The translations under genes and the position numbers were made by a program. From an uncultured Ilumatobacter sp. (lineage in GTDB: Bacteria; Actinomycetota; Acidimicrobiia; Acidimicrobiales; Ilumatobacteraceae), in the NCBI GenBank assembly GCA_938044705.1, contig CALIOL010000025.1, forward strand, positions 1 to 34,898: 34,898 nt of DNA, in the 5' to 3' direction. Below are positions 4,047 through 34,473 of this stretch, one piece after another; positions within the stretch are counted from its first letter, which is position 1, and every line of letters starts with the position of its first letter. Under the pieces are notes generated by a model. It searched no databases and had not been told where the DNA came from. It saw only the letters and a program-made list of their open reading frames with translations.

Positions 4047-5345
4047 ATGTCGGACCGTGACCAATCAGGACTCGACGGAGCCGTGTCGGTCGACGACGTC
4101 GACTTCTTCGATCCGGGAATCAACGATTGCCCGTATCACGCCTATCAGGCGCTGCGCGATGACGCCCCGGTCTGGTTCGATCCACGGCTCCAGGGTTACG
4201 TCATCACCCGTCACGACGACGTGCGAGCCGTGCTCACCGACACGGAACGCTTCGCAAACTCTCGCGACAAGAACGCTCGCAGCCGGAGCACGTCGCCGAA
4301 GATCTTGTCGCTGTACGAAGAGAAGGGGTGGGTGCCTGCGCCGACACTCGCCGGTCGCGATGACCCGAACCATCGCGAGATGCGAGCGTTGTTCAACCAC
4401 GCGTTCCGGCCGAAGCGAATCAGCGCGTTGGAACCCGAGATCAGTCGCGTTGCCGACGAACTGTTCGACGGTTTCATCGACGACGGCAGGTGCGACTGGG
4501 TCAGCCAGTTCGCTGTGCCGCTCCCGCTCATCATCATCGGGGTCCAGATGGGCGCCGATCCGGCGGACATCTGGCGGATCAAGGCGTGGACCGACGCATG
4601 GGTGCAGCGACTCGGGCTGATGCAGACCCCGGAGGAGGTCGTGTGGTCGACCGAGATGGAGATCGAAGCGCAGCACTACTTCCAACCCATCTTCGAACGG
4701 CTCCGGGCAGAACCCGACGACACCCTGCTCTCCGATCTCGTCAACACCGAGATCCCGGAGTGGGGCCGGTGCCTGACCGACGAGGAACTCCACGCCGAGA
4801 TGATGGCCGACACCTTCGTAGGTGGCTCCGAGACCAGCACGAACGCGTTGTCCGGCGGCGTGCGACTTCTTATCGAGCACCCGAACCAGTGGGACCGTCT
4901 GAAGAGCGACCCCGCCACCTACCTGCCCGTGCTCGTCGAGGAGGTGCTCAGACTCGAGTCGCCGGTGCAGCGGCTGTCGCGCACGGCTGTCGTCGACGTC
5001 GACCTTCACGGGGTGACGATCCCGGCGGGTTCCACCGTGCTGATCGGCTACGCCGCCGCGAACCGCGACGACCGCATCTTCGAAGAAGCCGACGCGTTCG
5101 ACCTCGACAGAGGCGACGCCAAGAAGCATCTGGCGTTCGGATTCGGTACACACTTCTGCCTCGGCGCCCCACTTGCGCGACGCGAACTGCTGCACGGCTT
5201 CACCGCGCTCGTCGAACGCATCGACGAGATGTGGTTTCTCCCGACGACGGACCTCACGATCGCCCCGAACTACTTCCTCCGAGCGCTCCAGAAACTCGAG
5301 ATCGGCTTCTCCCCAGCGGCGCGGACGGGGAACGGCTCGCCGTGA
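4047..5345 (+). CDS. Cytochrome P450
   Basis: FVGGSETS I-helix, ExxR (EVLRLESP), heme motif FGFGTHFCLGAPLAR. Start at ATG 4047. Confidence 0.93.
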   Translation: MSDRDQSGLDGAVSVDDVDFFDPGINDCPYHAYQALRDDAPVWFDPRLQGYVITRHDDVRAVLTDTERFANSRDKNARSRSTSPKILSLYEEKGWVPAPTLAGRDDPNHREMRALFNHAFRPKRISALEPEISRVADELFDGFIDDGRCDWVSQFAVPLPLIIIGVQMGADPADIWRIKAWTDAWVQRLGLMQTPEEVVWSTEMEIEAQHYFQPIFERLRAEPDDTLLSDLVNTEIPEWGRCLTDEELHAEMMADTFVGGSETSTNALSGGVRLLIEHPNQWDRLKSDPATYLPVLVEEVLRLESPVQRLSRTAVVDVDLHGVTIPAGSTVLIGYAAANRDDRIFEEADAFDLDRGDAKKHLAFGFGTHFCLGAPLARRELLHGFTALVERIDEMWFLPTTDLTIAPNYFLRALQKLEIGFSPAARTGNGSP

Positions 5346-6766
5346 CGAACCCGTTCGATGCCGTGCCCGACCTTGACGAGCCGTGGGGCGCCAAGAGAAA
5401 GTTCGAGCACATGCCGCTGGGTCGGGCGGTCGACATGGGGTCGGCCGACGACGGAACACCCTTGATCGACCCGCGCATCTTCGACAGCAGCGAGTTCCGT
5501 CGCAACCCGTACCCGTACTACCGGATCATGCGCGACCACTACCCGGTGTTCCACGACCGATTGCACAACTGCTACTACGTCACCCGCTACACCGACATCG
5601 AGGCCGCGTACTTCGACGAAATCGGCTTCAACACGATCCCCAAGGGGTCGTCGTCCGGAGTGCTCGGCAACACGCAGCTCGAACTGAGCGGGCTCGAACA
5701 TCGGCGGCGCCGTAACATCTACGGCCGCCACCTCGTCGGTGCGGCATTGACCAAACGGCTCCCGGCCCTGCGTTCGATGGCCGAGGACCTCATCGACCAA
5801 TGGTCGCTTCCCGACAACCCGAAGGGTGTCGAGGTCGACGGCGACACGATGGTCGTCGAGCTGGGTCGGGCGTTCGCGAACGAGTTCCCGATCGGTGTCG
5901 TCGCCCAGGTGCTCGGCATCCCGGGTGATGCCCGCCAGCAGTTCAACTGGTGGTACGACGCGATGATGGCGGGCCTCGGTGGCAGCGACACGCATCACGA
6001 CGGTCTGCTCGCCCGACAGGACCTCGAGAACTACGTCGCCACGTTGGTCGAGGAGCGACGAACGGCGCCGACGTACTTGTACGACGAGGACGGCAACGAG
6101 ATCTGCAAGGACATCATCTCCGAGTTGTGCCACGCCGAGATCGACGGCGACGTCATGTCCACCGAGGAGATCACCTCCTTCGTCGCGCTCGTCGTCGGCG
6201 GAGGCGGTGAAACGACCCGCGGGGCGATCCTCAACCTCTGGTACCTGCTGCTGCAACACCCCGACCAGTACCAGGCCGTGCTCGACGACCCGAGCCTCTG
6301 GAAGGCGGCATTCCACGAAATGCTGCGGCACTCGACGTCGATCGGCGGGCAACCCCGCCACAACACCTTTGACATCGAGCTGCACGGGGTCTCGATCCCA
6401 GCCGGGTCACTCGTCCACATGGTCGACGTCTCGGCGAACCACGACGACCGTGTGTTCGACGAGCCCGAGCGTTTCGACATCTTCCGCGACGACCTCTACA
6501 GCGACAAGATCCTCCGATCAGGTCACGACCAGGACGGTCGTCGAAGCCACATGGCCTTCGGCGTCGGCCCGCACCTGTGCCCGGGTGCGTGGATCTCGGA
6601 GCAGGAGACCGTGATCGGAGCTCGCGTGCTCAGCGAACGGTTCGCGAACGTCGAACTCGCCGTCGACCGCATGCCGACAGACATCGACGAAATGTCACTT
6701 GCTCCCATCGGGCTCGGGTCGATCCGTCAGCTCTGGTTGCGCGTGGAGATGACTCGTCAGTCGTGA
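5342..6766 (+). CDS. Cytochrome P450
   Basis: GTG start overlapping the preceding TGA (GTGA). VVGGGGETT I-helix, EMLRHST ExxR, heme motif FGVGPHLCPGAWIS. Confidence 0.92.
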   Translation: MTNPFDAVPDLDEPWGAKRKFEHMPLGRAVDMGSADDGTPLIDPRIFDSSEFRRNPYPYYRIMRDHYPVFHDRLHNCYYVTRYTDIEAAYFDEIGFNTIPKGSSSGVLGNTQLELSGLEHRRRRNIYGRHLVGAALTKRLPALRSMAEDLIDQWSLPDNPKGVEVDGDTMVVELGRAFANEFPIGVVAQVLGIPGDARQQFNWWYDAMMAGLGGSDTHHDGLLARQDLENYVATLVEERRTAPTYLYDEDGNEICKDIISELCHAEIDGDVMSTEEITSFVALVVGGGGETTRGAILNLWYLLLQHPDQYQAVLDDPSLWKAAFHEMLRHSTSIGGQPRHNTFDIELHGVSIPAGSLVHMVDVSANHDDRVFDEPERFDIFRDDLYSDKILRSGHDQDGRRSHMAFGVGPHLCPGAWISEQETVIGARVLSERFANVELAVDRMPTDIDEMSLAPIGLGSIRQLWLRVEMTRQS

Positions 6767-8073
6767 TCGGAGCGGGCACGTACGACCCCGGAACGGGTGC
6801 AGAGGACGAGCCGCTTGCGGCAGGCGGCTATCGCACGTACGAGGTCTTTCAGCGTGAGCGCGTCGGCGAGTCCGCCCCTGACCTCACACCGCGACAACTC
6901 ATTGGCGACGAGATGCTCACCGACCCGTATCCGACCCTTGCGAAGATGCGCGAGCACTCACCCTGCTACCGCGACTGGATCGGCAACCGGTTCTGGGTGA
7001 CCCGCTACGACGATGTCACCTCGGTGTTCGCCGACGACGCGAACTACCGATCGCGTTCGGCGCGGGGGTGGGCAGGTGTACCCCAGTACGGCCGCGACCT
7101 GGGCAGTGAGCTGCCGGTGCTCTGGGCTCGCAGCAACCGGATCGATGCACATCTCGAACGGATCGTCGAGCGCATGATCGCCGAGTTGCGGGATCGCCCA
7201 GACCTCGCCACAGCGTTTGCTGCACGCCTCCCACTGGAGTTGTGGGGTGCGATGCTCGACCTCGCCGGTGATGATCTGGCCGCGTTCTCCGGCCGACTCT
7301 GGAGGATGCGGCGAAGCACGGGGTGGGACGAGCGAAGCCGGATCGACGGGCACCGAGCCCGAGCGGAGCTCGAGGTCTCGATGGGTGTGCTGCTCGAGGC
7401 GCGCCGTCACGACCCGGGTGACGACCTCATCAGCGCGCTTGCAACCCTCGAACTCGTCGGCGAACCCGTCACTGCCGCCGACGTCGTGGCGACCATCTTC
7501 GAATCCGACGACGACACGCTCCACGGAGGCGTGGCCAACCTGTGGTTCCAGCTGCTGACGAATCGCGAGCAACTCGCCGTCGTGGAGCGAGCGCCTCGCC
7601 TCGCGAAACAGGCGTGGCACGAGGCGCTGCGTCACAGCCCGCCGGTCCACACCGCAGCGCGGTTCGCTCGACACGAAGTCGAGCGATTCGGACGGCTCAT
7701 CCCCGACGGTGCGCTCGTGGCGTGCTCGGCCGCAGCCGCAAACCGCGATCCGCGGGTGTTCGCCGATCCGGACCGATTCCTCGTCGAACGTCCCGACCTG
7801 TGCCAGCGAGAGCCTCGCGGGCAGTATCGAGCCGATGGGCTGGCGTCCGGTATCGCGTTCGGTCTCGGCCGACCGTCGGTGCACCCAGCGCTCCCGAAAG
7901 AGCGGCCGCGTTCTTCCTACGCCATCGTGCGCGACATCGCAGTGACCGCCACGCGCATGTTGCTCGACGCACACCCCGGTATCCGTCTCGCCGATGGAGC
8001 CTCGCCGAAGCTGCGCTCATTACGACTGGGCGAGATGTACACGTGTTGGGAGCTCCCGGTCGACCTGGGTTGA
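6763..8073 (+). CDS. Cytochrome P450 homolog lacking the conserved heme-thiolate cysteine (degenerate or accessory P450-like protein)
   Basis: GTG start overlapping preceding TGA (GTGA). P450-like throughout (MLTDPYPTLAKMREHSPCYRDW, EALRHSPPVHTAARFARHEVERFGRLIPDGALVACSAAAANRDPRVFADPDRF), but the heme loop reads FGLGRPSVHP (Cys replaced by Val) and the I-helix reads FESDDDT. Confidence 0.82.
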   Translation: MIGAGTYDPGTGAEDEPLAAGGYRTYEVFQRERVGESAPDLTPRQLIGDEMLTDPYPTLAKMREHSPCYRDWIGNRFWVTRYDDVTSVFADDANYRSRSARGWAGVPQYGRDLGSELPVLWARSNRIDAHLERIVERMIAELRDRPDLATAFAARLPLELWGAMLDLAGDDLAAFSGRLWRMRRSTGWDERSRIDGHRARAELEVSMGVLLEARRHDPGDDLISALATLELVGEPVTAADVVATIFESDDDTLHGGVANLWFQLLTNREQLAVVERAPRLAKQAWHEALRHSPPVHTAARFARHEVERFGRLIPDGALVACSAAAANRDPRVFADPDRFLVERPDLCQREPRGQYRADGLASGIAFGLGRPSVHPALPKERPRSSYAIVRDIAVTATRMLLDAHPGIRLADGASPKLRSLRLGEMYTCWELPVDLG

Positions 8074-13355: not shown

Positions 13356-13883
13356 ATGTCCGTCCCCGTACTTCTGCTCGATGCCACATGGCGAATCGAT
13401 CGCGTCATCGGTGTGAATCACGCCTGCAGCCTGCTCGTGTCGAACGAAGCGGTCGCAGCGTCCGCGGAGATCGCGCTCGTCATGCACTCACCGTCGATCA
13501 CCGTCGAGATTCCTTCGGTGATCGCCCGCACGACCGTGGTGAGTCGCCGCCGCGAACGCACGCCGGGCTGTAACGCTCGCCGTGTCCGCCAGCGGGACAA
13601 TCATGTGTGCCAGTTCGTCATCGATGGCACGCCGTGCGATGCGCCCGGCGACTCGGTCGACCACCTGGTGCCGTCGTCGCGCGGTGGCGAGAACACCTGG
13701 GTGAATCTCGTCGCTTCATGCAAGGCGCACAACAACGTGAAGGCCGACCGGTCGCTGGATCAGATGACCGACCGTTTCGGCTGGCGCCTGCGCCGTGAGC
13801 CGTTCCCGCCGTCCTATGCCCAGATGCAGGTCGCGTCGATCCGGCGTTGCGTGCCGGCATGGGAGCCCTTCCTCGTCGCGTGA
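13356..13883 (+). CDS. HNH endonuclease
   Basis: CQFVIDGTPCDAPGDSVDHLVPSSRGGENTWVNLVASCKAHNNVKADRS; strong Shine-Dalgarno (ggaggtga) upstream of ATG. Confidence 0.85.
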   Translation: MSVPVLLLDATWRIDRVIGVNHACSLLVSNEAVAASAEIALVMHSPSITVEIPSVIARTTVVSRRRERTPGCNARRVRQRDNHVCQFVIDGTPCDAPGDSVDHLVPSSRGGENTWVNLVASCKAHNNVKADRSLDQMTDRFGWRLRREPFPPSYAQMQVASIRRCVPAWEPFLVA

Positions 13884-13929
13884 CGTTGCGAGGAAGCGGC
13901 GCCGACGCGTCTGCGCGAGAGTCGTGGCC

Positions 13930-14709
13930 ATGACCTTTCCGAACTTCGCGGGCAAGCACGACGCCGACGCGGTGCTGACACCATCGTCGTTGCTCGCACA
14001 CCGCCTAGATCAGCTCGGAGAATCGCTGCCGGACAACGTGCCGTCCCGGCTCGTGATGATCTACCAGCCGCAGCTGCTCAGCGCGATCCGCTCGTTGGAG
14101 AAGACCACGCTGGTGAACGTCGGGGGACTCACGCAAACGGTTCACGCGCTCGACCGCACGAACGGTGAGGTCGGCGTCGTTGGCGGGTTCGGGATCGGTT
14201 CGCCCGCTGCCGTTGCCGTGCTCGAAGAGATGATTGCGCTCGGCATCACCAAGTTCATGAGCATCGGAGCGGCGGGGGCGATCGCCGACCTCTCGATCGG
14301 CGACCTCGTCGTGTGCGACAGTGCGATCCGCGACGAGGGCACGTCACACCACTACGCCGCCGCCGACGTCGAAGCTGGTCCCGACGCGGAGCTCACTCAG
14401 GCAATGGTCAGTGCGTTCGAGTCGTCGGGCACGGAACACCTCGTCGGCAAGACGTGGACGATCGATGCGCTCTTTCGGGAGACTCCGCAGGAGGTTCGTC
14501 ACTACGCAGGCGACGGCGTGATCACCGTCGAGATGGAAGCCGCAGCGCTCTTCATCGTCGCCGCTGCCCGCGGCGTCCAACTCGGGGCGGGGTTCTGTGT
14601 CAGCGACTTGCTCGCTGGCGGTACCTGGCGAGCGGCCTTCGACTCCGATCGCCTGGTCGGCAACATGTGGAAGCTGTTCGAGACCAGCGTGTCGGTGCTC
14701 GAGGGCTGA
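13930..14709 (+). CDS. Nucleoside phosphorylase (uridine/purine phosphorylase-like)
   Basis: GGFGIGSPAAVAVLEEMIALGITKFMSIGAAGAI...VITVEMEAAALFIVAAARG, PNP/UDP phosphorylase signature. Confidence 0.85.
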   Translation: MTFPNFAGKHDADAVLTPSSLLAHRLDQLGESLPDNVPSRLVMIYQPQLLSAIRSLEKTTLVNVGGLTQTVHALDRTNGEVGVVGGFGIGSPAAVAVLEEMIALGITKFMSIGAAGAIADLSIGDLVVCDSAIRDEGTSHHYAAADVEAGPDAELTQAMVSAFESSGTEHLVGKTWTIDALFRETPQEVRHYAGDGVITVEMEAAALFIVAAARGVQLGAGFCVSDLLAGGTWRAAFDSDRLVGNMWKLFETSVSVLEG

Positions 14710-14758: not shown

Positions 14759-15304
14759 ATGCAGTTCCTGGATCCACGCGGGGTGCCCAGTCGAGAGATC
14801 GAGCCGTACGAGCTCAGCGCCGATCTGAGCGAGGGCGACACCGTCGCCCTGTTCGCGAACGGCTTCCCCGATTCAGTCGCATTTCTCGATCACGTCGAGA
14901 GCTCGCTCGGAGCGCAGCTGCCAGGCGTCGAGTTCCTGAAGCTGAACAAAGGCAATGCGAGTGCACTCGCCTCCGACGAGCATCTCTCGGCGATCGCCGA
15001 TTCCTGTTCGGCTGTGGTCGCCGCGTACGGGCATTGAGGCAGCTGCACGTCCGGCACCGTGCGTGACGGAATCGAAGCAGCTCGCCGAGGCGTCGCGTCG
15101 GTCGCTCTGGTGACAGAGCAGTTCTGGTTGCAGGGCGACTCGGTCGCGGTCTCCGCCGGGATGCCGGACCTCCCTCGACTCCGACTGCCTCACCCGGTTG
15201 CCGGCACCGGACACGACGCCATGGCCCGAGTGGCCGACCAGTTCGCCGCACGCATCGTCGAAGTGCTTCGCGGGCAGGCGCTTGCGGACAACGTCGTCGC
15301 ATGA
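14759..15304 (+). CDS. UGSC family selenoprotein; in-frame TGA at 15035-15037 read as Sec (residue 93 of 181)
   Basis: ORF 14759..15037 continues in the same frame as ORF 15059..15304: ...IADSCSAVVAAYGH-U-GSCTSGTVRDGIEAARRGVASVALVTEQFW.... The residues around the TGA spell the defining U-G-S-C motif, and a SECIS-like hairpin follows directly. Confidence 0.9.
15035..15086 (+). promoter_or_regulatory. Putative bacterial SECIS element for the UGSC selenoprotein
   Basis: Immediately after TGA: GGCAGCTGC (15038-15046) pairs with GCAGCT-C-GCC (15077-15086, one bulged C). Apical stem CCGT (15057-15060) / ACGG (15066-15069) with loop GCGTG (15061-15065), G at first loop position, 23 nt after the UGA. 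Manual folding only. Confidence 0.75.
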
Positions 15305-16395: not shown

Positions 16396-17021
16396 GCGAA
16401 GCGATCGTCCAAGACGTCAGCCCAGACCTGGTTGCCCTGGTCGCTCAGGTGGAGCCCGTCGACGGTGTCGTCTCGACGGAGTGCTCCCGCACCATCATCG
16501 AACGCCGGGTACAGGTCGAGCAGCTCGACACCTCGCTCGTCAGTCAACGAACGGATGGCGTCGTTGGCCGCCACCACCTCGCTGGCGCGATCCGCCCGCG
16601 GCAGCAGCGTCTGCACGATGACCGTCGTCTCCGGCGCCGTCCGCTCGAACTCGTCCAAGATCAACCGGAGGTGTCGGACGGTCCACGACGGAGACTGGCC
16701 GTCTCGAATGTCGTTCGTCCCGGTGAGGATGAACACCGAGGACGGGCGAGCTGCCGCCACGGTTTCGGCAACGTCGACCAGTTGCGCAGTCGTGTAGCCG
16801 GAATATCCCTCGTTGGCGATTTCTCGGTCGGCAAACGTCGACGCCCACGGGCCCTGCTCGGTGATGCTGTCGCCCAGCATCACGATGGTCGACGCATCGA
16901 TCGGGAGACGTTCGACGTCTCGGCCGCCGCGTCCCGACCACACCCAGGCAGCGAGTGAGAGCCCGAGCAACACCGCCCCGAGGCCAGCGCCGACGATGGC
17001 GGGGCGCTTCGGGATCTGCAT
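16386..17021 (-). CDS. Membrane-anchored SGNH/GDSL-type esterase
   Basis: MQIPKRPAIVGAGLGAVLLGLSLAAWVW anchor, then IVMLGDSITEQGPW, LTGTNDIRDG, DGLHLSDQGNQVWADVL. Confidence 0.85.
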   Translation of the reverse strand: MQIPKRPAIVGAGLGAVLLGLSLAAWVWSGRGGRDVERLPIDASTIVMLGDSITEQGPWASTFADREIANEGYSGYTTAQLVDVAETVAAARPSSVFILTGTNDIRDGQSPSWTVRHLRLILDEFERTAPETTVIVQTLLPRADRASEVVAANDAIRSLTDERGVELLDLYPAFDDGAGALRRDDTVDGLHLSDQGNQVWADVLDDRFAQL

Positions 17022-17124
17022 CACGACATGGTCGCGCGTTTCTCGCCGCAGTAGGCATCTCTCGGCGACGCCGACGACTACGTTTCGACAGACCGATCGA
17101 GCCAGACGACAGCGAGGAACACCC

Positions 17125-18681
17125 GTGACCGACATCATCATCCACCCCAGCCCGTTGCCCGAGGTAGAGATCCCAGCGGTCACGATCACCGCGCACGTAT
17201 TGCGAAAGACCGACGAGATGCCCGACCGCGTCGCCATTCAGGACGCCGCCGGAACGAGTTCGTACACGTTCGCCGAGCTCGGCACGGCGATCCACTCGTT
17301 GGCAGGAGGTCTTGCAGCACGAGGGGTCGCGCCCGGAACCGTCGTCGGGCTGATGGCACCGAACATTCCCGAGTACGCAGTGGTCTTCCATGGCGTTGCT
17401 GTCGCCGGTGGCGCGGTGACCACGATCAACCCGACGTACGGGGCCGAGGAAGTGCGTCACCAGCTCCAGGACGCCGGAGCTTCGATGCTCTTCGTCGTCC
17501 CGATGTTCCTCGAGACTGCCAGCGCCGCGATCGAAGGAACCGATGTCACCGAGATCGTGGTGATGGGCGACGCAGCGCCCGGCGCCACGCCGATGGCCGA
17601 AGTCTTCGGTGAACCGATCGAACAGGTCCCGGTCGACCTGATGGATCACACGGTCGTGCTGCCCTATTCGTCGGGCACGACCGGGCTGCCGAAGGGCGTG
17701 ATGCTCACGCACCACAACCTCGTGGCCAACATCGAGCAGGTCAAGCACGCCATCCTGTACGCCGACGACGAAGTCGGTCTGGCAGCGCTGCCGTTCTTCC
17801 ACATCTACGGCATGCAAGTCCTGATGAACGGCCTGATCGCCAACGGAGTCACCACGGTGTCGATGCCGCGCTTCGACATGGTGGAGGCCTTGCAAGCGGT
17901 TCAAGAACTCAAGATCACTCGGTTCTTTGCCGTGCCACCGATCATCCTGGGCCTTGCCAAGCACCCGATCGTCGACCAGTACGACATGTCCTCGGTGCGC
18001 CAGATCTTCTCGGGGGCCGCCCCGCTGGGTGCAGAGCTGGCCGCGGAAGCGGGCGACCGCCTCGGGTGCGAAGTCGTGCAAGGTTTCGGGATGACCGAGC
18101 TCAGCCCGGTCAGCCACTGCACCGTCGAGGGCGACTACCGGCCAGGTACGAGCGGCGTCACCGCATCGAACACCGAGAGTCGAGTGGTCGACCCCGACAC
18201 CGGCGAGGACCAAGGTGTCGGTGGACGAGGCGAACTCTGGGTCCGTGGGCCCCAGGTGATGAAGGGCTATCTCAACAACGACGAGGCCACCGCTGCGACC
18301 GTGGACGCCGACGGCTGGTTGCACACCGGTGACATCGCGATCATCGACGAAGCCGGCCACATGACGATCGTCGATCGGCTCAAGGAGTTGATCAAGTTCA
18401 AGGGCTTCCAAGTAGCTCCCGCCGAGCTCGAGGCGCTCATCATCACGCATCCGAAGGTCGCAGATGTCGCGGTCATCGGCGTCCCCGATGACGAAGCCGG
18501 CGAGGTCCCGAAGGCATTCGTCGCCCCGGTCGAAGGTGAAACCGTGACACTCGACGAGATTCAGGAACTCGTCGGCGAGCACCTGGTCAGCTACAAGCAG
18601 GTCAAGATCCTCGAAGTGATCGACGCGATTCCCAAGAGCGCTGCTGGAAAGATCCTGCGCAAGGAGCTGCGCGCTCGCTGA
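17125..18681 (+). CDS. AMP-dependent acyl-CoA synthetase (4-coumarate-CoA ligase-like)
   Basis: YSSGTTGLPKGVMLTHHN, QGFGMTELSPVSH, GWLHTGDIAIIDEAGHMTIVDRLKELIKFKGFQVAPAELE, PKSAAGKILRKELR. GTG start after a gaggaa-like RBS. Confidence 0.93.
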   Translation: MTDIIIHPSPLPEVEIPAVTITAHVLRKTDEMPDRVAIQDAAGTSSYTFAELGTAIHSLAGGLAARGVAPGTVVGLMAPNIPEYAVVFHGVAVAGGAVTTINPTYGAEEVRHQLQDAGASMLFVVPMFLETASAAIEGTDVTEIVVMGDAAPGATPMAEVFGEPIEQVPVDLMDHTVVLPYSSGTTGLPKGVMLTHHNLVANIEQVKHAILYADDEVGLAALPFFHIYGMQVLMNGLIANGVTTVSMPRFDMVEALQAVQELKITRFFAVPPIILGLAKHPIVDQYDMSSVRQIFSGAAPLGAELAAEAGDRLGCEVVQGFGMTELSPVSHCTVEGDYRPGTSGVTASNTESRVVDPDTGEDQGVGGRGELWVRGPQVMKGYLNNDEATAATVDADGWLHTGDIAIIDEAGHMTIVDRLKELIKFKGFQVAPAELEALIITHPKVADVAVIGVPDDEAGEVPKAFVAPVEGETVTLDEIQELVGEHLVSYKQVKILEVIDAIPKSAAGKILRKELRAR

Positions 18682-18746: not shown

Positions 18747-19574
18747 GTGCAGCCCCGGCGTGTCACCAGACGAACGGTGATCGCCGGTGTCGCTGGCTTT
18801 CTCGGCCTTCGAGTGAGTTCTGCCGCGGCGAACGCGGGGCCCACGGAGGTCTCCGAGCCAGCCGTTCTCGGCGAGACGCAGCGCGCGCTGCGAATGGACG
18901 TACCGGTGCATCGGCTGCCGAGCTGGACGACCGGAGTGATCGGCCACAGTGTCGAGGGCCGCCCCATCGAGCGTCTCGACAGTCGGCCGCTGCGCACGAA
19001 TCGTCACGTGGTGGTCATCTGCGGCACCCACGGCGACGAACGAGCGCAGCTCGACCTGGCCGATGGCTTCGGACGGATCAACCGCCCCGATGACCTCCAC
19101 CTGACGATCATCCCGCTGTTGAACCCGGACGGGTGGGTGGCCGAGACGCGTGAGAACGCACGCAACGTGGACATCAACAGGAACTTCCCGTGGGGATGGC
19201 CTGCCCGTCCGGACTCAGGCCCCGAGCCGGCTTCGGAACCCGAAACTCAGGCGATCATGACGTTTCTCGAGATCACGCGCCCGGATCTGGTCATCTGGGT
19301 CCACCAACCGCTCGACTACGTTGCTCCGATCGAAGGATGCCCTAAGTGGTACGCCGACATCTGGTCGGAATTTGCCGACGTTCCGGTGCGCCTGCACGTC
19401 CTGCAGATCGGCGGCGGGGAGACGTGGACAGCGAAGTCGCTGGGACTCCCGTCGATGCTGATCGAAGTCGGCGGGAAACGCGATGACCCGATCGGTGTCC
19501 CGGCGCACGTCTCGGCGCTGGAAGCGCTGATCTTCGCAGTGCAGCCGTTCGAGGACGGCGCCCCCGCTGACTAG
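18747..19574 (+). CDS. Exported M14-like zinc peptidase (MpaA-like) with Tat-type signal
   Basis: N-terminus RRVTRRTVIAGVAGFLGL; GTHGDERAQ (HxxE), LLNPDGWVAETRENARNVDINRNFPWGW. Confidence 0.8.
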   Translation: MQPRRVTRRTVIAGVAGFLGLRVSSAAANAGPTEVSEPAVLGETQRALRMDVPVHRLPSWTTGVIGHSVEGRPIERLDSRPLRTNRHVVVICGTHGDERAQLDLADGFGRINRPDDLHLTIIPLLNPDGWVAETRENARNVDINRNFPWGWPARPDSGPEPASEPETQAIMTFLEITRPDLVIWVHQPLDYVAPIEGCPKWYADIWSEFADVPVRLHVLQIGGGETWTAKSLGLPSMLIEVGGKRDDPIGVPAHVSALEALIFAVQPFEDGAPAD

Positions 19575-19867
19575 CGGTTGGCTTTGGCGGCGGCCTTCGC
19601 GATGCGCTTGGCCGTGCGGCCCGTTGGCTCGATGTTGCGGTGATCGCAGTCGCCGACCTCCATGCCGTTCTCGAACAGCACGCGGTAGCGCAGCCAGTTG
19701 AAGCCGTTTGCGAGGATGACTTTGCCTTCGGTGCCGACCGGCACGCCGTTGATTTCAGCCGTGCTGACAACCCGGTCGTTCATCTTCAACGCGATCTGAC
19801 CATCGTGCGGCGACGCGAGCTTGTGCGGCTTCCAGTACTCCACGTCGACCAGTCTGCCGCAAACCAC
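19571..19867 (-). CDS. Small conserved hypothetical protein
   Basis: 98-aa ORF MVCGRLVDVEYWKPHKLASPHDGQIALKMNDRVVSTAEINGVPVGTEGKVILANGFNWLRYRVLFENG..., composition unlike antisense noise; no named family recognised. Confidence 0.65.
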   Translation of the reverse strand: MVCGRLVDVEYWKPHKLASPHDGQIALKMNDRVVSTAEINGVPVGTEGKVILANGFNWLRYRVLFENGMEVGDCDHRNIEPTGRTAKRIAKAAAKANR

Positions 19868-20025
19868 ACTCGATCATCCGCATCCGCGCCGGAATAAGGG
19901 TGTCTGGAATGATCGTCGCGGTGACTCATCGCCGATCGTCTCGTGCGTATCGACTCGGCATCGCAGTCCCGTTCCGGTGACGGGGCCGACGAGACGGGGC
20001 CTGAGGCGTCGACACACGGCCCGGA

Positions 20026-20031
20026 TAGCGT
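20026..20031 (+). promoter_or_regulatory. Putative -10 box (TAGCGT) for a near-leaderless tig transcript
   Basis: GGATAGCGT with 8 nt to the GTG start. Confidence 0.4.
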
Positions 20032-20039
20032 GGGCCTCC

Positions 20040-21461
20040 GTGAAAAGTTCGGTTGAAGTCCTCGAGGACAACAAAGTCAAGGTGTACGTCGAAGTCGAAG
20101 AGGCGGAGTTCGATACCGATATCGACAAGGCGTTCAAACTGTTGGCCAAGGAGGTGAACCTGCCGGGCTTCCGTGCTGGCAAGGTTCCCCGCAAGGTGCT
20201 CGAGGCCCGCGTGGGTATGGGCCCCGCTCGCGAGCAGGCGCTTCGCGACGGTGTTCCCGAGTACCTCTCCCGCGCGGTGCGAGAAAACGACGTCGACCTG
20301 ATCGCCACGCCGGAGATCGAGATCACCGACGGTGAAGAAGCTGGCCCCGTCGAGTTCGAGGCGACCTGTCAGGTCCGCCCGGTCATCACGGTGTCGGGCT
20401 ACGACTCGCTGCAGGTCGAGCTGCCATCGGTCGAGGTGGACGACGCCGACATCACCGAGGCGCAGGAGCAAGAACTGGCCCGAGAAGCGTCGCTCGACAC
20501 CGTCGAACGGCCAGCGGCCGAAGGCGACTTCGTGCTGGTCGATCTCGAAGCGACACGCGACGGCGAAGAAGTCGCCGGACTCAACACCGAAGACTGGTCC
20601 TACGAGATCGGCCAGGGTTGGGTCACCGATGACTTCGACGAACATCTGGTCGGCGCCTCTGCCGGTGATGTCGTCGAATTCACTTCGACCCCGAAGGGCA
20701 CCGAGGAGGCTGCCGACTTCAAGGTCACGGTGCAGTCGGTCCAGTCGCGGGAGCTTCCCGAGCTCACCGACGAATGGGTGGATGAGAACGTCGGCGAGTT
20801 CGACACGGTCGAGGCGTGGACGACGAGCCTTCGCGAGTCGCTCGCCGAGGGCAAACTGAGCGCTGCTCGCCAGCAGGCCGGCACGAAGCTGAACGACGCG
20901 TTGGCCGAATTGGTCGATCTGGAAGTACCCGAGCCGATGGTCACGTCCGACCTGAACCAGCGAGTGCAGGGCACGATTCAGCAGTTCCAAGCGCAAGGCA
21001 TCGACTTCGAGCAGTGGATGCAAGCAACCGGCCAGGACCCCGAGAGCTTCATCGAGGGCATGCGCGGGCAATCCGAGATGGCGGTGAAGGTCGACCTGGC
21101 CCTCCGGGCCGTCGGCGTTGCCGAGAACATCGAAGTGTCCGATGATGAGCTGGAGCGCGAGTACGCACGGCTCGCCATGCAGTATCAGCAGAAGGCCAAG
21201 GACATCCGCAAGGCCTACGAGCAAAACGATGCGGTCGGCGAACTCATTGCGCAGATCACCAAAGCCAAGGCGTTCGATGTGCTCGTGCACGGCGCCACGT
21301 ACGTGGATGAGAACGGCACCGAGATCGACCGAGATCTGCTCATCGGCGATCACGACCACGACCACGATCACGATCACGATGCAGTCGACGACGAATCAAC
21401 TGACGACGAATCAACCGAAGACGCACCAAGCCCCGACGAAAGCAGTGAGGACGAAGCCTGA
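20040..21461 (+). CDS. tig: Trigger factor
   Basis: [47 protein letters not shown]...; upstream of clpP-clpX. Start GTG 20040. Confidence 0.95.
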
Positions 21462-22093
21462 TGGATCTCGAAGCAACCAACTACATGGTTCCCAACGTCG
21501 TCGAGCAGACCGCTCGCGGTGAGCGCGCCTACGACCTCTACAGCCGTCTGCTCAAGGAGAACATCATCTTCTTGCAGACGCCGGTCGACGACACCGTCGC
21601 CAGCCTGATCTCGGCGCAACTGATCTTCCTGGAGTCGGAGAACCCCGACAAGGACATCAACATCTACATCAATAGCCCGGGTGGGGACATCACGGCGCTG
21701 TTCGCGATCTACGACACGATGCAGTTCATCAAGAACGACATCGCGACGATCTGCCTCGGTCAGGCAGCATCGGCGGCCGCGGTCCTCCTGGCGGCGGGCA
21801 CGAAGGGCAAGCGCCTCGCACTGCCGCACGCACGCGTGCTGCTCCACCAGCCGTCCGGCCAAGTCGGCTACGGCCAGGTCACCGATCTGGAGCTCGCAGC
21901 GTCCGAAATCCAACGAATGCGTGAGATTCTCGACGGCATCTTGTCCGAGCACACCGGTCAAACGGTGGAGAAGATCCACGCCGACACCGACCGTGACTTC
22001 GTCATGGAAGCGCAAGAGGCGCTGGAATATGGCATCATCGACCAGGTGATCAACTCGCGCGAAGCGGTGGATCGGGCCGGCCCGATCCGCTGA
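21461..22093 (+). CDS. clpP: ATP-dependent Clp protease proteolytic subunit
   Basis: [58 protein letters not shown]; start codon overlaps tig stop. Confidence 0.97.
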
Positions 22094-22101
22094 CCAGGGG
22101 C

Positions 22102-22139
22102 GGGACGGCGTGAGAGGAAATTCACGCCGGAACGGTCCC
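22102..22139 (+). terminator. Stem-loop in clpP-clpX intergenic region (terminator-like or regulatory)
   Basis: GGGAC GGCGTGA-gaggaaat-TCACGCC ggaacg GTCCC: perfect 7-bp inner stem plus 5-bp outer stem; no obvious U-tract. Confidence 0.45.
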
Positions 22140-22225
22140 TGCATCGGTCAGTGTGATGGTGCATGATGAGGGCCGTTCGTTGTCGGGTACGAGACGAACA
22201 GAAAGCGACCTGAGGAGAATCGACA

Positions 22226-23506
22226 GTGGCGAAATTCGGCGACACCGGGGAACTCCTCAAGTGCTCGTTCTGCGGCAAGTCGCAGAAGCAGGTCAAGAAG
22301 TTGATCGCTGGACCCGGCGTCTACATCTGCGATGAGTGCATCGACCTCTGCAACGAGATCATCGAAGAGGAACTGACCGAGACTGCCGAAGTCAGTTTCG
22401 AGTCGCTGCCGAACCCGCGAGAGGTCCGTGCATTCCTCGACGACTACGTCGTCGGCCAAGACGATGCGAAGAAGATCCTGTCGGTGGCGGTGTACAACCA
22501 CTACCGGCGTATCCAGCACCAAGCGGACAATGAGTCCACCGTCGGTCGCCGTGACGAAGTGGAGTTGGCCAAGTCGAACATCTTGCTGCTCGGTCCCACG
22601 GGCTGCGGCAAGACGCACCTCGCGCAGACCTTGGCTCGCCAGCTCAACGTTCCGTTCGCGGTCGCTGACGCGACCGCGCTGACCGAGGCGGGCTACGTCG
22701 GCGAGGACGTCGAGAACATCCTTCTGAAGCTGATCCAGGCTGCCGACTTCGACGTCAAGCGAGCCGAAAGCGGCATCGTGTACATCGATGAGATCGACAA
22801 AGTCGCTCGCAAGAGTGAGAACCCGTCGATCACCCGAGACGTTTCAGGCGAAGGTGTGCAGCAGGCGCTGCTGAAGATCCTCGAAGGCACCCAGGCCTCC
22901 GTGCCGCCGCAGGGTGGTCGCAAGCATCCGCACCAGGAGTTCATCCAGATCGACACGACCAACGTGCTGTTCATCCTCGGAGGAGCGTTCGCCGGTCTCG
23001 ACGACATCATTGAGAACCGCATCGGCCAGAAGGGCGTCGGGTTCAACCACACCGTGCGCAGCCACGTCGACCGCGACCCGGGTGAGCTGTTTGCGCAAGT
23101 GTTGCCCGAAGACCTCGTCAAGTTCGGCATGATTCCCGAATTCATCGGCCGCCTGCCGATGGTGGGGGCGGTACGCAGCCTCGACAAGGAAGCGCTCGTC
23201 TCGATTCTGACCGAGCCGAAGAACAGCTTGATCAAGCAGTACGAGAAGATCTTCAGTTTCGAAGACGTCGAGCTCGAGTTCACCGACGACGGGCTGACTG
23301 CGATCGCCGACCAGGCGCTCCTTCGAGCGACCGGTGCTCGTGGGCTGCGGGCAATTCTCGAAGAAGTCCTGCTGGAGACGATGTACGACTTGCCCGGCCG
23401 CACCGACATCGGCAAGGTCGTCATCGATGCCGAAACCGTGACCGAGAAGGTCAACCCGACCCTGGTGCCGCGTAAGGCTCCCCGCCAGCGCAAAGCCGCT
23501 TCCTGA
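22226..23506 (+). CDS. clpX: ATP-dependent Clp protease ATP-binding subunit
   Basis: [32 protein letters not shown] zinc domain, [16 protein letters not shown] Walker A, YIDEIDK Walker B. GTG start. Confidence 0.97.
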
Positions 23507-23509
23507 CCA

Positions 23510-23537
23510 TCGATCTGGTGGATGAACACCAGATCGA
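23510..23537 (+). terminator. 11-bp inverted repeat between clpX and folC
   Basis: TCGATCTGGTG-gatgaa-CACCAGATCGA, perfect hairpin with 6-nt loop just after clpX stop; no strong U-tract. Confidence 0.5.
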
Positions 23538-23561
23538 CGCATTTCACCTGACAGGACACCG

Positions 23562-24851
23562 ATGGACTTCCAGGCCGCGCTCGCGTATCTCGACGAGCAC
23601 ATGTCGTACCAGAAGACGGGCCGTATCGACTCGCCGTCGATCGAGCCGATCACGAAGATCTGCGGTGCGCTGGGTGACCCGCACCTGAGTGCTCCGGTGA
23701 TCCACGTCACCGGCACGAATGGCAAGGGCTCGACGGTCCAGATGATCTCGCGGCTCCTCGCTGCGCAGGGTCTCACCGTCGGGACCTACACGAGTCCTCA
23801 TCTCGAGTCGGTGACCGAGCGGTTCAAGCGCAACGGCGAATCCATCTCGGAGGAGGAGCTTGCCGAGCAGATCCAAGCCGTCGCCGAAGTCGCACCACTC
23901 GTCGGGCAGAACCCCGGCTACTTCGAGATCTTGACCGCGGCAGCGTTCCGTTGGTTTGCCGATATCGCCGTTGACGTGATGGTGATCGAAGTCGGTCTGC
24001 TCGGACGCTGGGACGCAACGAACATCGTGCAGTCACAGGTTGCGGTGATCACGAACATCGGGATGGACCACAACGAATTCGCAGGTCCGTCACTGGTCGA
24101 CATCGCACGGGAGAAGTCGGGCATCGTCAAGCCGGGCTCAGCGGTCATGATCGGAGAGACGCGACCGGAACTGATCGACATCTTCCAGAACGCCGGGGGA
24201 GCGACGTCCTTCGTTCGCGGCGAGGACTTCGCTGTCACGAGCAATGCCCTCGCAGTGAACGGCCGGTTGCTCGACCTGCGCACACCGACCACCATCTACA
24301 CCGATGTCTTCCTTCCGCTGAACGGGGCGCATCAGGGCGATAACGCGGCGCTCGCGCTTAGCGCCGTCGAGACCTTCTTCGCCGCGCCACTCCCAGAGGA
24401 TGTCGTTCACGAAGGGTTCGGCGAGGTCTCGATGGCCGCCCGCTTCGAGATCCTCGGTCGACAGCCGCTGACCATTCTCGACGGTGCACACAACCCGTTC
24501 GGCGCCGACACCGTCGCCTCGGTCTTCTTCGACGACTTCCATCCGGAGGGCCGACGGATTCTGGTCGCGGCGACGTTGCGAGACCCCGCCGAGATGCTTC
24601 AGGCGATGCGTGCCGACGAGTTCGACATGGTCTTCCTCGCGACCGCGCCGACACCCCGAGCGGTGCCGGTCGCAGACCTCGTGCAGGCAGCGGAAGCAAT
24701 GGGCTGTGACCACATCGCCAGCTTCGACACGGTCGAAGCGGCCTGTGCCCGAGCGATGGAATTTGCTGATGGCGATGACGCCGTGCTCGTGACGGGCAGC
24801 CTGTACACCGCTGGCGCCGCCCGGTCCGTCTTGCAGCGCTCCGCCAACTGA
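23562..24851 (+). CDS. folC: Folylpolyglutamate synthase/dihydrofolate synthase
   Basis: [45 protein letters not shown]. Confidence 0.93.
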
Positions 24852-24939
24852 GTCGACCTTCGCTCTGCCGGTTCAGGCCGACGTGACGAGTGCCCGCGCA
24901 CGCATGCGTTCATCGGGTGTCGGTGACCCGATGGCTGGA

Positions 24940-24945
24940 TAGCGT
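24940..24945 (+). promoter_or_regulatory. Putative -10 box (TAGCGT) for a near-leaderless ndk transcript
   Basis: GGATAGCGT with 8 nt to the ATG start, nearly identical to the tig arrangement. Confidence 0.4.
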
Positions 24946-24953
24946 TGCGGGCC

Positions 24954-25364
24954 ATGTCTGATCGCACTCTCGTCCTCCTCAAGCCCGATGCCGTGGAGCG
25001 CAAGCTCGCTGGTGCCGTGATCTCCCGCTTCGAGGCGAAGAACCTCGACATCGTCGCGATGGAACTGCGTCAGCTCGATGCTGACACGCTTGCCAAGCAC
25101 TACGAAGAGCACGTCGGCAAGGGCTTCTACAACGAGCTCGTCGAGTTCATGAGTCGCGGCCCCGTCGTGGCGATGGTCATCGAAGGACCCGAAGACACCT
25201 GGGAAGTCGTGCGCAACATGATGGGCACCACCAACCCGGCAAAGGCAGCACCGGGGACCATCCGCGGCGACCTTGGCATCCTCTTCACGGAGAACCTCGT
25301 GCACGGCAGCGACTCGCTCGAGTCCGCGACCCGCGAAATCGGGATCTTCTTCCCGAATCTGTAA
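24954..25364 (+). CDS. ndk: Nucleoside diphosphate kinase
   Basis: DRTLVLLKPDAVERKLAGAVISRFE, VVRNMMGTTNPAKAAPGTIRGDLG, NLVHGSDS active-site His. Confidence 0.96.
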   Translation: MSDRTLVLLKPDAVERKLAGAVISRFEAKNLDIVAMELRQLDADTLAKHYEEHVGKGFYNELVEFMSRGPVVAMVIEGPEDTWEVVRNMMGTTNPAKAAPGTIRGDLGILFTENLVHGSDSLESATREIGIFFPNL

Positions 25365-25509
25365 CATTGTCGCCTGACGGGGCAACGCTCCGGTTCGATC
25401 GCACTAGATTCGAACGATCATCTGGACTACGGCAAACAGGCAGGGCGCGGCATCGTTGGGATTGCCCGTCGTGACCTGACCACACAGCTCGCGAAGGGAC
25501 GGCCAGCAC

Positions 25510-26544
25510 ATGGCCCGCAACAACCCACTCAGCCTGGGGCGTGACCTCGCCATCGACCTGGGCACGGCGAACACCCTCATCTATGTGCGCGGCCAAGGGG
25601 TCGTGCTCGACGAACCATCGGTCGTTGCGATCAACGTGAACGACGGTCGACCGGTTGCGGTCGGTCTCGAAGCGAAGCGCATGATGGGGCGAACGCCCAA
25701 CCACATCAAGGCGATCCGCCCGCTGAAGGACGGCGTGATCGCTGACTTCGAAGTGTGCGAGAAGATGCTGCGCTACTTCATTCAAAAGGTGCACGCGTCG
25801 AAATGGAGCAAGCCGCGCATGGTGATCTGCGTGCCGTCGGGCATCACCGGCGTCGAACAGCGCGCCGTGCAGGACGCTGCGGAGTACGCAGGGGCGCGCA
25901 AGCCGGTGCACATCATCGAAGAGCCGATGGCTGCGGCGATCGGTGCCGACCTTCCCGTCCACGAGCCCTCGGGCAACATGATCGTCGACATCGGCGGTGG
26001 TACCACCGAGGTTGCCGTCATCTCGCTCGGAGGCATCGTGACGGCTCAGTCCGTTCGCGTCGCTGGCGACGAACTCGACGATGCAGTCCTGCAGTACGTG
26101 AAGAAGGAATTCTCGCTGGCGATCGGTGATCGCACGGCTGAGGAGATCAAGATCCAGATGGGCTCCGCCTGGCCGCTGGAAGAAGAGCTCACTGCCGATA
26201 TTCGCGGTCGCGATCTGATCTCCGGGTTGCCCCGCACGATTCAGCTCACCACCGAACACGTTCGCGAAGCCCTTGCCGAGCCAATCTCTGCCATCGTTGA
26301 CGCGGTGAAGACGACACTCGACAAAACCCCTCCGGAACTCGCAGCCGACATCATGGAGGACGGCATCACGATCACCGGTGGCGGTGCGCTCATCGGCGGG
26401 CTCGATGAACGCCTCACCCACGAAACGGGTATGCCGATTCGCGTGGCGAACGAGCCGCTCTACAGCGTTGTCATCGGCTCAGGCCGCGCACTCGAGAACA
26501 TCGATGCAATGCGCGGCCTGATGTCCATGGGCGGCGAAGACTGA
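25510..26544 (+). CDS. mreB: Rod shape-determining protein MreB
   Basis: DLAIDLGTANTLIYVRGQGVVLDEPSVVAIN, MIVDIGGGTTEVAVISLGGIV, GITITGGGALIGGLDERL. Confidence 0.97.
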   Translation: MARNNPLSLGRDLAIDLGTANTLIYVRGQGVVLDEPSVVAINVNDGRPVAVGLEAKRMMGRTPNHIKAIRPLKDGVIADFEVCEKMLRYFIQKVHASKWSKPRMVICVPSGITGVEQRAVQDAAEYAGARKPVHIIEEPMAAAIGADLPVHEPSGNMIVDIGGGTTEVAVISLGGIVTAQSVRVAGDELDDAVLQYVKKEFSLAIGDRTAEEIKIQMGSAWPLEEELTADIRGRDLISGLPRTIQLTTEHVREALAEPISAIVDAVKTTLDKTPPELAADIMEDGITITGGGALIGGLDERLTHETGMPIRVANEPLYSVVIGSGRALENIDAMRGLMSMGGED

Positions 26545-26547
26545 CCC

Positions 26548-26563
26548 GACCCCGTTCGGGGTC
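26548..26563 (+). promoter_or_regulatory. Short GC-rich hairpin between mreB and mreC
   Basis: GACCCC-gttc-GGGGTC perfect inverted repeat between mreB stop and mreC start. Confidence 0.4.
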
Positions 26564-26573
26564 CCTTCAGCTC

Positions 26574-27848
26574 ATGGCCATTTACACCGTCGGTCGCCGC
26601 CGCGTCATCGTCGGGCTGCTGCTCACCGCCGCCCTGCTCCTCACTCTCGACCTGCGCGGCAACGCTGTCCTCGACACAGTTCGCGACGGATTCTCGCGCG
26701 CCATGTCGCCGGTCGAACGCGCTGCGGACGTCGTGACCAACCCGGTACAGCGGGGTTGGAACTCGTACAACAACTACGACGACCTCGAGCGGGAGAATCA
26801 AGCGCTTCGCGACCAGCTTGACCGCCAGCGGGGTACCCAAGCTGCGGCCGAGGCGAGCATCATCGACTACAACCTGCTGCTTGCGTTGAACAACCTGCCG
26901 TCGCTCACGGGGATCCCGACTGCGAAGGCGCAGGTCGTCGGCGGAGCGACGAACAACATCGACCAGATCGTCGAGATCAACAAGGGAACCAACGACGGCA
27001 TCCGCCAAGGGATGGCGGTCGTCAATCAAGCGGGCCTGATCGGGAAGATCACGCAAGCGAACGCGACCACGTCCAAGGTCATGTTGGTGACCGATCCGCG
27101 CTACTCGATCGCCGTGGAGATCCTCGCCGGTACCGGCGAGACCAGCTCGCTCGACGACCTCGAGACCTCGAACACGACGCCGTCCGGCAACACCGAGGAA
27201 GAAATCGATCAGATCATCCTCGACGCAGTCGAATCGGACAACGACGATGCTGTCGAAGACGGTGCCGATGCCGAAACCGACGATGGAGACATCGATGGCG
27301 AGACCAACGATGGTGAGACCGACGATGGTGAACCAGCTGACGAGACTCCAGCCGACGTCTTCGCGAACGACATCGACCTGCCGCAGGCCGGTGACCTCCC
27401 CGATCCCGGCGTCGTCACGCCCGAGACCACGACCACGACACTGCCGCCTGCCGTGATCCCAGGCGAGGACGCTCCGCCGGTCACCGATCCCGACGGCAAC
27501 CCCATCGAGACGACCACCACCACGACCACGATCGTGGATCTCGAACCCGAGCAACTGGAGAAGGAGTTCGGCGAGATGCAGGGGCGAGGTGCGGGTCAGC
27601 TTCCGCAGATCCGCTTCCTTCAGGACATCCCGTCACTCGCGGTGCTCGAGGTCGGCGACCTCGTCGAAACGGCAGGGCCGTCCGAGAGTCTGGCGCCGCC
27701 CAACATTCCGGTCGGGCGAGTTATCAACCGCGCCGACCGCCCGGGCGTGGCTGGTCCGCTGTTGGAAATCGAGCTCTACGCCGACCTGGACAAGCTCAAC
27801 TTCGTTCGCGTCGTGCTGTTCCGGCCGCTGTCGGAAGCAGGGGAGTGA
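26574..27848 (+). CDS. mreC: Rod shape-determining protein MreC with long acidic/Thr-rich insertion
   Basis: N-terminal TM, coiled coil, VVGGATNNIDQIVEINKGTNDGIRQGMAVVNQAGLIGKI, C-terminal VGDLVETAGPSE...LPPNIPVGRV-like region; located between mreB and mreD. Confidence 0.92.
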   Translation: MAIYTVGRRRVIVGLLLTAALLLTLDLRGNAVLDTVRDGFSRAMSPVERAADVVTNPVQRGWNSYNNYDDLERENQALRDQLDRQRGTQAAAEASIIDYNLLLALNNLPSLTGIPTAKAQVVGGATNNIDQIVEINKGTNDGIRQGMAVVNQAGLIGKITQANATTSKVMLVTDPRYSIAVEILAGTGETSSLDDLETSNTTPSGNTEEEIDQIILDAVESDNDDAVEDGADAETDDGDIDGETNDGETDDGEPADETPADVFANDIDLPQAGDLPDPGVVTPETTTTTLPPAVIPGEDAPPVTDPDGNPIETTTTTTTIVDLEPEQLEKEFGEMQGRGAGQLPQIRFLQDIPSLAVLEVGDLVETAGPSESLAPPNIPVGRVINRADRPGVAGPLLEIELYADLDKLNFVRVVLFRPLSEAGE

Positions 27849-27858
27849 TCGATCGCCG

Positions 27859-28398
27859 ATGTTGGCGGCGATCGTCCGCAGCTCGCTGATCCGACTCGTC
27901 CCCGTCGGCATGGTGATGCTGGCACTGCAACGTACGGTCTTCGCAGAGATCGAAGTGTCAGGTGTGATCGTGCAGGTCGTGCTTGCGCTCGCCGCAGCGG
28001 CGGGCGCAGCGGGAGGCTCCGAACGAGGCGCCATGGCCGGCTTCACGCTCGGTGTCATGTTCGATCTCGTCGAGGGCACGCCGATCGGGTCGACGGCGAT
28101 CGCCTTCACGTTGGCGGGTGTCGTCGCTGGACTGCTTGCACTGATCGCTGCGGACCCGCAGTGGTGGCTCAGTGCGATCTTCGTGGGGCTCGGTGCGGCG
28201 GTCGGCGAAGCGATGCTTCCCGTCGTGCGGATATTCATCGGTGAAGAAGATCCTTGGCCGCCTCAGATGGTCAAAGTCGTCGCGATCGTGACGGTCGCAG
28301 CGACGGTGCTGAGCCCGCTCTTGGTCCCGCTCGGCCGATGGTGCCTGCGCATCCGCGGACCTGAGTGGAAAGCGCCAGCGGACTTGCCGTCGGTCTGA
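27859..28398 (+). CDS. mreD: Rod shape-determining protein MreD
   Basis: Multi-TM ORF (MLAAIVRSSLIRLVPVGMVMLALQRTVFAEIEV...GAMAGFTLGVMFDLVEGTPIGSTAIAF), positioned between mreC and mrdA. Confidence 0.85.
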   Translation: MLAAIVRSSLIRLVPVGMVMLALQRTVFAEIEVSGVIVQVVLALAAAAGAAGGSERGAMAGFTLGVMFDLVEGTPIGSTAIAFTLAGVVAGLLALIAADPQWWLSAIFVGLGAAVGEAMLPVVRIFIGEEDPWPPQMVKVVAIVTVAATVLSPLLVPLGRWCLRIRGPEWKAPADLPSV

Positions 28399-28534
28399 TC
28401 GCACGCTGCCGTCAGCCCGGATCCTTGGTCGCGACAGTGATCCTCGACGGGAGGTTTCGGTTCCGTGACTGATGGCTACAGGAGTTTTCGATTCGTGCCC
28501 GGCATTGCGGTTGTGTGACAGGCAGACTGTCTCG

Positions 28535-30787: not shown

Positions 30788-30827
30788 CGTTCGACGGCGT
30801 GTCTCACATCTACGATTCGGGACGTAC

Positions 30828-31979: not shown

Positions 31980-32055
31980 TCCGACGGTCCGACGGGGAAG
32001 TTCCTCGCGCAAGTAAGCTGCGTCGCCAGTGATCGACACCGACGAATTCACCCCT

Positions 32056-32078
32056 TGGCCGGCCGTTGTCGGCGGCCA
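32056..32078 (+). promoter_or_regulatory. Stem-loop in the rodA-rne intergenic region
   Basis: TGGCCG[G]CCG-ttgt-CGGCGGCCA: 9 bp with one bulged G. Confidence 0.45.
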
Positions 32079-32227
32079 GGTGCCGGTGGTGGTGTCTGCA
32101 CGGACGACCCGCTCCATCAGCCGATGCGGCGGTACCTACACGAACGCCGGGATCCGCCCGAAGTGCGGCCTGATCCTGGCGACGGAGCGACGCCGATGCG
32201 TCCCGCTCCCGAGAAGGGACACCCTCC

Positions 32228-34186: not shown

Positions 34187-34473
34187 GCGAGAGGCGTCGG
34201 TCGGTCAGCGTGTCGGGCCCGGACGGCGAGCCCCTGTCGAGGTCGCGCCGCATCGCCCTGGCGCTGGTCACTCATCCGCACACGGAGAAGTCGCTTCGTC
34301 GCGGCTTCCTGGTCAACCTGGTGTTTCTGATCGTGTACCTCGTGATCCTGGTCGGGAGTATCGGCGCGATCTCTGCGTTGCTGGCCTCGGTGGCAGCGAT
34401 CGTGGCCGTGTTCATCGGCGCTCGAGCGTGGGCGAACTGGGCGGTACTCAGAGAGATCTCGACGCAGTCCTGA
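34183..34473 (+). CDS. Small integral membrane protein (two predicted TM segments)
   Basis: ATG overlaps rne stop (ATGA); hydrophobic FLVNLVFLIVYLVILVGSIGAISALLASVAAIVAVFIGA. Confidence 0.7.
   Translation: MSERRRSVSVSGPDGEPLSRSRRIALALVTHPHTEKSLRRGFLVNLVFLIVYLVILVGSIGAISALLASVAAIVAVFIGARAWANWAVLREISTQS

Follow-up and report, generated by a model that had tools for sequence, protein, structure and literature searches.

A UGSC-family selenoprotein gene and its adjoining partner in Ilumatobacter: a candidate thioredoxin-linked selenoenzyme with a distant relation to GrdB and PrdB

Results

A UGSC gene interrupted by an in-frame TGA

The window, i.e., the whole stretch of 34,898 nucleotides analysed here, comes from an uncultured Ilumatobacter sp. 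and contains two ORFs in the same frame, at positions 14759-15037 and 15059-15304. The first terminates at a TGA, and only seven sense codons (15038-15058) lie between that TGA and the second; the coordinates given in the original prediction, which regarded the two ORFs as halves of one selenoprotein gene, are thus exact. Reading the TGA as selenocysteine (Sec) yields a protein of 181 residues with U at residue 93, in the context ...AAYGH-U-GSCTSGTVRDGIEAARRG.... Residues 91 to 98 are GHUGSCTS, so that the expected U-G-S-C motif, in its general form U/C-G-S-C, is present at the Sec position. The features of the locus are collected in Table 1.

Table 1. Features of the UGSC locus, in window coordinates
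Feature	Position	Strand	Details
UGSC-family selenoprotein gene	14759..15304	+	181 codons; ATG start, TGA stop at 15302-15304; PF24696 1.7e-41 over residues 3-171; AF2 pLDDT 95.7
In-frame TGA, read as selenocysteine	15035..15037	+	Residue 93, first of U-G-S-C; TGA in 11/11 Sec-type clade members including the window; TGC/TGT in 5 Cys homologues
Probable bacterial SECIS hairpin	15050..15070	+	nt 16-36 from the T of the TGA; UCCG-g-CAC, loop CGUGC, GUG-a-CGGA
Partner protein, 364 aa	15301..16395	+	Start overlaps the UGSC stop (ATGATG); AF2 pLDDT 91, pTM 0.90
AMP-binding acyl-CoA ligase ORF	16813..18681	+	PF00501 1.9e-91; real start probably near 17150

In high-GC DNA, a frame that stays open past a stop codon is no evidence by itself. 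The continuity of the frame was therefore tested with the two halves of the protein, with substitution rates and with relatives. Searched separately, the 92-residue half before the TGA matched positions 2-92 of PF24696 (2.4e-11), and the 88-residue half after it matched positions 94-171 (1.7e-21). The joined protein matched positions 2-171 of the 172 in the model, with 142.7 bits against a cut-off of 25, which bears out the predicted membership in the UGSC family. The dN/dS ratio after the TGA was about 0.09-0.17 among the closest relatives and similar before it, with mostly silent changes. On these sequence comparisons, a chance open frame after the TGA is excluded. Sequencing error is ruled out as well, because the TGA is kept in ten other genomes of the clade.

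Sec/Cys exchange and selenocysteine machinery

Besides the family search, the original prediction proposed two computational checks, a search for homologues with U or C aligned to the Sec residue and one for the genes of Sec insertion, and both had positive outcomes. By its UGSC gene, the window is closest to Ilumatobacter metagenome-assembled genomes. Among 13 related loci from GTDB, eight, all actinobacterial, have TGA at the Sec codon, and five (L026-L030) have TGC or TGT at the same residue; Cys occupies this place in records from Rhodospirillaceae, Sphingomonadaceae/Novosphingobium and Cryobacterium. A search of the class added two TGA members of the window clade (L068 and L085).

The genome to which the window belongs is a draft of 3.88 Mb in 369 contigs, 82% complete, in which selA, selB, selC and selD all score over cut-off. 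The tRNA-Sec passes the Rfam cut-off with 66.5 bits and is also called as tRNA-SeC by ARAGORN, while selA and selB are adjacent on contig C74. The selD gene (C215:3816-4736, locus L032) has an in-frame TGA of its own, so SelD is probably a selenoprotein too. A search of the genome with PF07355, the GrdB family, gave matches on contigs C49 and C89 and left the window gene unmatched. The two short GrdB/PrdB-like genes there lie at C49:474-851 and C89:391-753, and the former has TGA at the Sec position, which argues that further selenoproteins are probably encoded in this genome.

The UGSC family is widespread in the class, being carried by 139 of 395 genomes drawn from it; among the matches listed, most have one internal TGA. 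Among those same matches, SelA was found in 97 of 103 genomes with a TGA copy versus one of seven with Cys copies only (Fisher 2.9e-6, uncorrected for phylogeny). One class member (L101, 7746-8288) has a second TGA near the end of the frame, followed by PAADPRSA, which may be its normal stop. Our literature search on selenoproteins in Acidimicrobiia or Ilumatobacter found no relevant paper.

A probable SECIS hairpin after the TGA

From sequence comparison, the segment of nucleotides 16-36, counted from the T of the TGA, is probably a SECIS hairpin. The silent sites of codons +6 to +10 (GGC ACC GTG CGT GAC) are identical in 11 of 11 Sec-type relatives and vary in the Cys homologues. Across the window clade, 93.5% of the pair cells are paired, with one compensatory pair, which goes with a TCC/AGC switch of serine codons. 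The hairpin of this clade is no more stable than controls obtained by synonymous codon resampling. The sister UGSC clade has a hairpin 11 nucleotides after the TGA in which 97% of the cells are paired and four of eight pairs show compensatory changes, a result matched by none of 500 shuffles, and which beats its codon-resampled versions in stability (mean z -2.1). The hairpin of the window clade is shorter than that of the sister clade and has a loop containing GU.

The energetic weakness of the window-clade hairpin, together with the fact that UGA is an ordinary stop in this genome and ends the UGSC gene itself, would fit a TGA that is a true stop followed by a gene remnant or a separate small gene. 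We consider this extremely improbable, given that both halves fit one Pfam model contiguously, that purifying selection acts downstream of the TGA, that the TGA is retained in 11 genomes and replaced by Cys codons elsewhere, and that the genome has the full Sec machinery. That a single gene encoding a UGSC-family selenoprotein spans the TGA is, as far as sequence can tell, virtually certain.

A divergent clade of a known family

The UGSC family (NF041046 and PF24696) is already known, so the gene does not define a new selenoprotein family. The 2008 paper on the GOS metagenomes (PMC2398784) listed UGSC proteins with the selenoproteins that are most abundant in aquatic microbes, and their function was still uncharacterised in a 2026 review (PMC13188914). 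The window gene resembles them in its full-length Pfam match, its U-G-S-C motif, the place of the Sec/Cys residue and its length of about 180 residues. It belongs to a divergent clade, placed with 15 relatives on one side of a branch with an SH-aLRT of 99. Members of this GH-UGSC clade have GHU or GHC in the motif and TSGTVRD after it, with the UGSC gene upstream of the partner gene, whereas most other members have (A/G)DUGSC, SxSVHD after the motif and the opposite gene order.

The window protein scores 102.3 bits with NF041046, under its equivalog cut-off of 125. Seven tested members of the window clade, including the window, lie at 88-104 bits, and four proteins of the sister clade exceed the cut-off, at 128-169 bits. 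Annotation by that cut-off could thus miss the window gene. On the Paracoccus ferrooxidans plasmid pFER4 (L127, 5369-5938), the annotation gives two short hypothetical ORFs in place of a UGSC gene with an internal TGA; this gene adjoins a partner gene, and selB lies about 4 kb away on the same plasmid.

A near-constant partner protein

The gene directly downstream of the UGSC gene encodes a protein whose homologues, of about 360 residues, directly adjoin UGSC in 13 of 13 GTDB loci. The partner is also found beside UGSC in almost every class and plasmid locus that has sufficient sequence, and in the GTDB and class loci either gene may come first; a few loci, some of them short or located at a contig end, gave no partner match (L034, L035, L046, L053, L069 and L070). 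The two are fused in Variovorax boronicumulans, in one CDS of 545 residues. These observations argue strongly that the two proteins form a functional unit, and the near-constant presence of the partner, adjoining or fused, is new relative to the literature searched.

The partner has conserved stretches of the types DGLPV, MAGC and RAN..IGRA. Nothing in Pfam or among PDB sequences matched it, and despite its confident model no PDB fold came out below 1e-3. A fusion of UGSC to a domain called Unknown_1 was reported in the GOS metagenomes (PMC2398784); the partner, likewise fused to UGSC in V. boronicumulans, may be this domain.

Two large hypothetical proteins combine the partner domain with an N-terminal part, one in Vibrio europaeus (L128, 5323-7008) and one in Sporomusa termitida (L130, 5299-7023), and both are encoded near aconitase X. 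The N-terminal part of the Vibrio protein is weakly UGSC-like and has Met at the Sec position, which suggests that some relatives work without Sec or Cys.

Predicted fold and relation to GrdB and PrdB

The AF2 model of UGSC (pLDDT 95.7) shows alternating beta strands and alpha helices in a Rossmann- or flavodoxin-like arrangement. It places Sec93 between a beta strand (residues 85-91) and a helix (94-109), just before the helix. Flavodoxin-, FtsZ- and Rossmann-like structures make up its listed PDB fold matches; every one has a TM score (query) below 0.5, and no thioredoxin fold is among them. The fold of UGSC is thus predicted to be Rossmann-like rather than thioredoxin-like.

Profile comparison with hhalign aligned UGSC to GrdB/PrdB-like selenoproteins of the same class with a probability of 92% and a score of 52.7 over 91 columns, Sec on Sec. 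Sixty column-shuffled controls gave at most 1.4% and a score of at most 21.5, and two unrelated families stayed below 1%. The similarity to GrdB (PF07355/TIGR01917) and to the D-proline reductase subunit PrdB covers the last 91 or so columns. TIGR01917 also matches one UGSC member across the Sec region (8.5e-5). The two groups share the U-G-(S/T) pattern, a downstream PHP motif and a linkage to thioredoxin. There are thus good grounds, at the profile level, to regard UGSC as a distant relative of that end of glycine/proline reductase subunit B which carries Sec; this relation and the predicted Rossmann-like fold are new relative to the literature searched. UGSC corresponds to the Sec domain only, with 181 residues versus about 435 for GrdB. 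We considered the partner as a counterpart of GrdE (PF09338) by homology and rejected this (hhalign 0%). As the partner is unrelated to GrdE, the analogy with GrdB/PrdB is limited to the Sec domain.

Gene neighbourhood

A homologue of the acyl-CoA ligase gene that follows the pair in the window lies some 0.1 kb after the pair in a related locus, L020 (88.6% identity to the window ligase), and another is 73% identical (L019). Of 14 window-clade loci, 9 have an AMP-binding CoA ligase gene no more than about 3 kb away, versus 30 such genes in the 3.9 Mb of the window's own genome, a comparison uncorrected for phylogeny. Other recurrent neighbours encode enoyl-CoA hydratase, acyl-CoA dehydrogenase, SDR, CoA transferase and tricarboxylate/TRAP binding proteins, and some loci have genes of the isocitrate lyase/PEP mutase and adenylosuccinate lyase families. 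Since the neighbours vary between loci, a single shared substrate is unlikely.

At six plasmid loci (Roseovarius, Variovorax SRS16, V. boronicumulans, Arthrobacter, Neorhizobium and Haloterrigena), a thioredoxin reductase (TrxR)-like gene lies about 2 kb or less from a UGSC copy. The TrxR-like genes of three of these loci exceed the TIGR01292 cut-off, and Arthrobacter also has trxA; this plasmid linkage is new relative to the literature searched. The genome of the window has one TrxR over the cut-off. Neither the window nor any Acidimicrobiia locus examined has trxB beside the pair, which counts against the thioredoxin link.

Related loci had no nucleoside phosphorylase gene close to the pair, so the one at 13795-14709, 50 bp upstream, was dropped as an operon member. 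The sister clade has metallo-beta-lactamase-like and HhH-GPD neighbours, which probably reflect shared synteny of one orthologous locus. Phosphosulfolactate synthase genes occur near UGSC on Arthrobacter and Natrinema plasmids (L123 and L124). Elsewhere in the window, 18747-34473 is a housekeeping run (an M14 peptidase-like ORF, trigger factor, clpP, clpX, a Mur-ligase-like gene, mreB, mreC, PBP2, rodA and RNase E/G), and two neighbouring ORFs at 4490-8073 contain cytochrome P450.

Discussion

The gene structure, family, Sec machinery, partner linkage and distant GrdB/PrdB relation come directly out of the computations. From the latter relation, the TrxR-like plasmid neighbours and the acyl-CoA and carboxylate neighbours we infer a redox cycle, thioredoxin as the electron donor and the class of substrate. 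UGSC and its partner would form a thioredoxin-fed, Sec-dependent reductase acting in carboxylate or acyl-CoA catabolism. The SelB/tRNA-Sec machinery would read the UGA to produce the Rossmann-like protein, in which Sec93 would head a helix and be followed three positions later by Cys96, and this protein would act together with the partner. By analogy with the Sec domain of glycine and D-proline reductase subunit B, the two proteins would hold a substrate towards which Sec93 serves as nucleophile or reductant; Sec93 would then form a Se-S bond with Cys96, which thioredoxin and thioredoxin reductase would reduce. The probable substrate is a small carboxylic acid or the corresponding CoA ester, and it may differ between UGSC paralogues. 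We put the probability of this mechanism as a whole at about 0.6; that no biochemistry of the UGSC family was found in the literature searched counts against it, as does the Met at the Sec position of the Vibrio protein.

UGSC might instead be a genuine selenoprotein with a general thiol-disulfide or antioxidant role, akin to thioredoxin, with the partner as its target or chaperone. The UxxC motif and the trxA and trxB genes that adjoin UGSC on some plasmids are compatible with such a role, and the GOS paper thought a Trx-like fold likely (PMC2398784). However, the high-confidence Rossmann/flavodoxin-like model, without thioredoxin among its listed fold matches, and the profile relation to GrdB/PrdB point elsewhere, and tight pairing or fusion with one partner among catabolic neighbours is ill-suited to a general reductant, making this role quite unlikely.

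We also judge it unlikely that the pair performs non-redox chemistry, for example as an isomerase, racemase or lyase of carboxylic acids, with Sec or Cys as nucleophile or base and thioredoxin merely keeping that residue reduced. The isocitrate lyase/PEP mutase and adenylosuccinate lyase family neighbours would suit such chemistry, as would the Met that replaces Sec/Cys in the Vibrio fusion beside aconitase X and the similar setting of the large Sporomusa protein. Against it stand the invariance of U/C, G and the second C in 49 aligned UGSC members and the recurring linkage to TrxR-like genes.

If the reductase is taken further, the pair could represent a new two-subunit class of selenoenzyme, widespread in actinobacteria and also plasmid-borne. 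A free-standing GrdB/PrdB-type Sec domain would work with a substrate subunit of new fold, and thioredoxin would drive the reductive cleavage of carboxylates or acyl-CoAs by the two. We advance this class only tentatively, as a possibility that may well not hold.

Our analyses also point to an annotation gap, as members of the window clade fall under the NCBIfam cut-off and the TGA copy on pFER4 is split into two ORFs. The near-constant partner, its fusion to UGSC, the TrxR link and the relation to GrdB/PrdB turn a functionally uncharacterised selenoprotein family into the subject of a specific, testable hypothesis.
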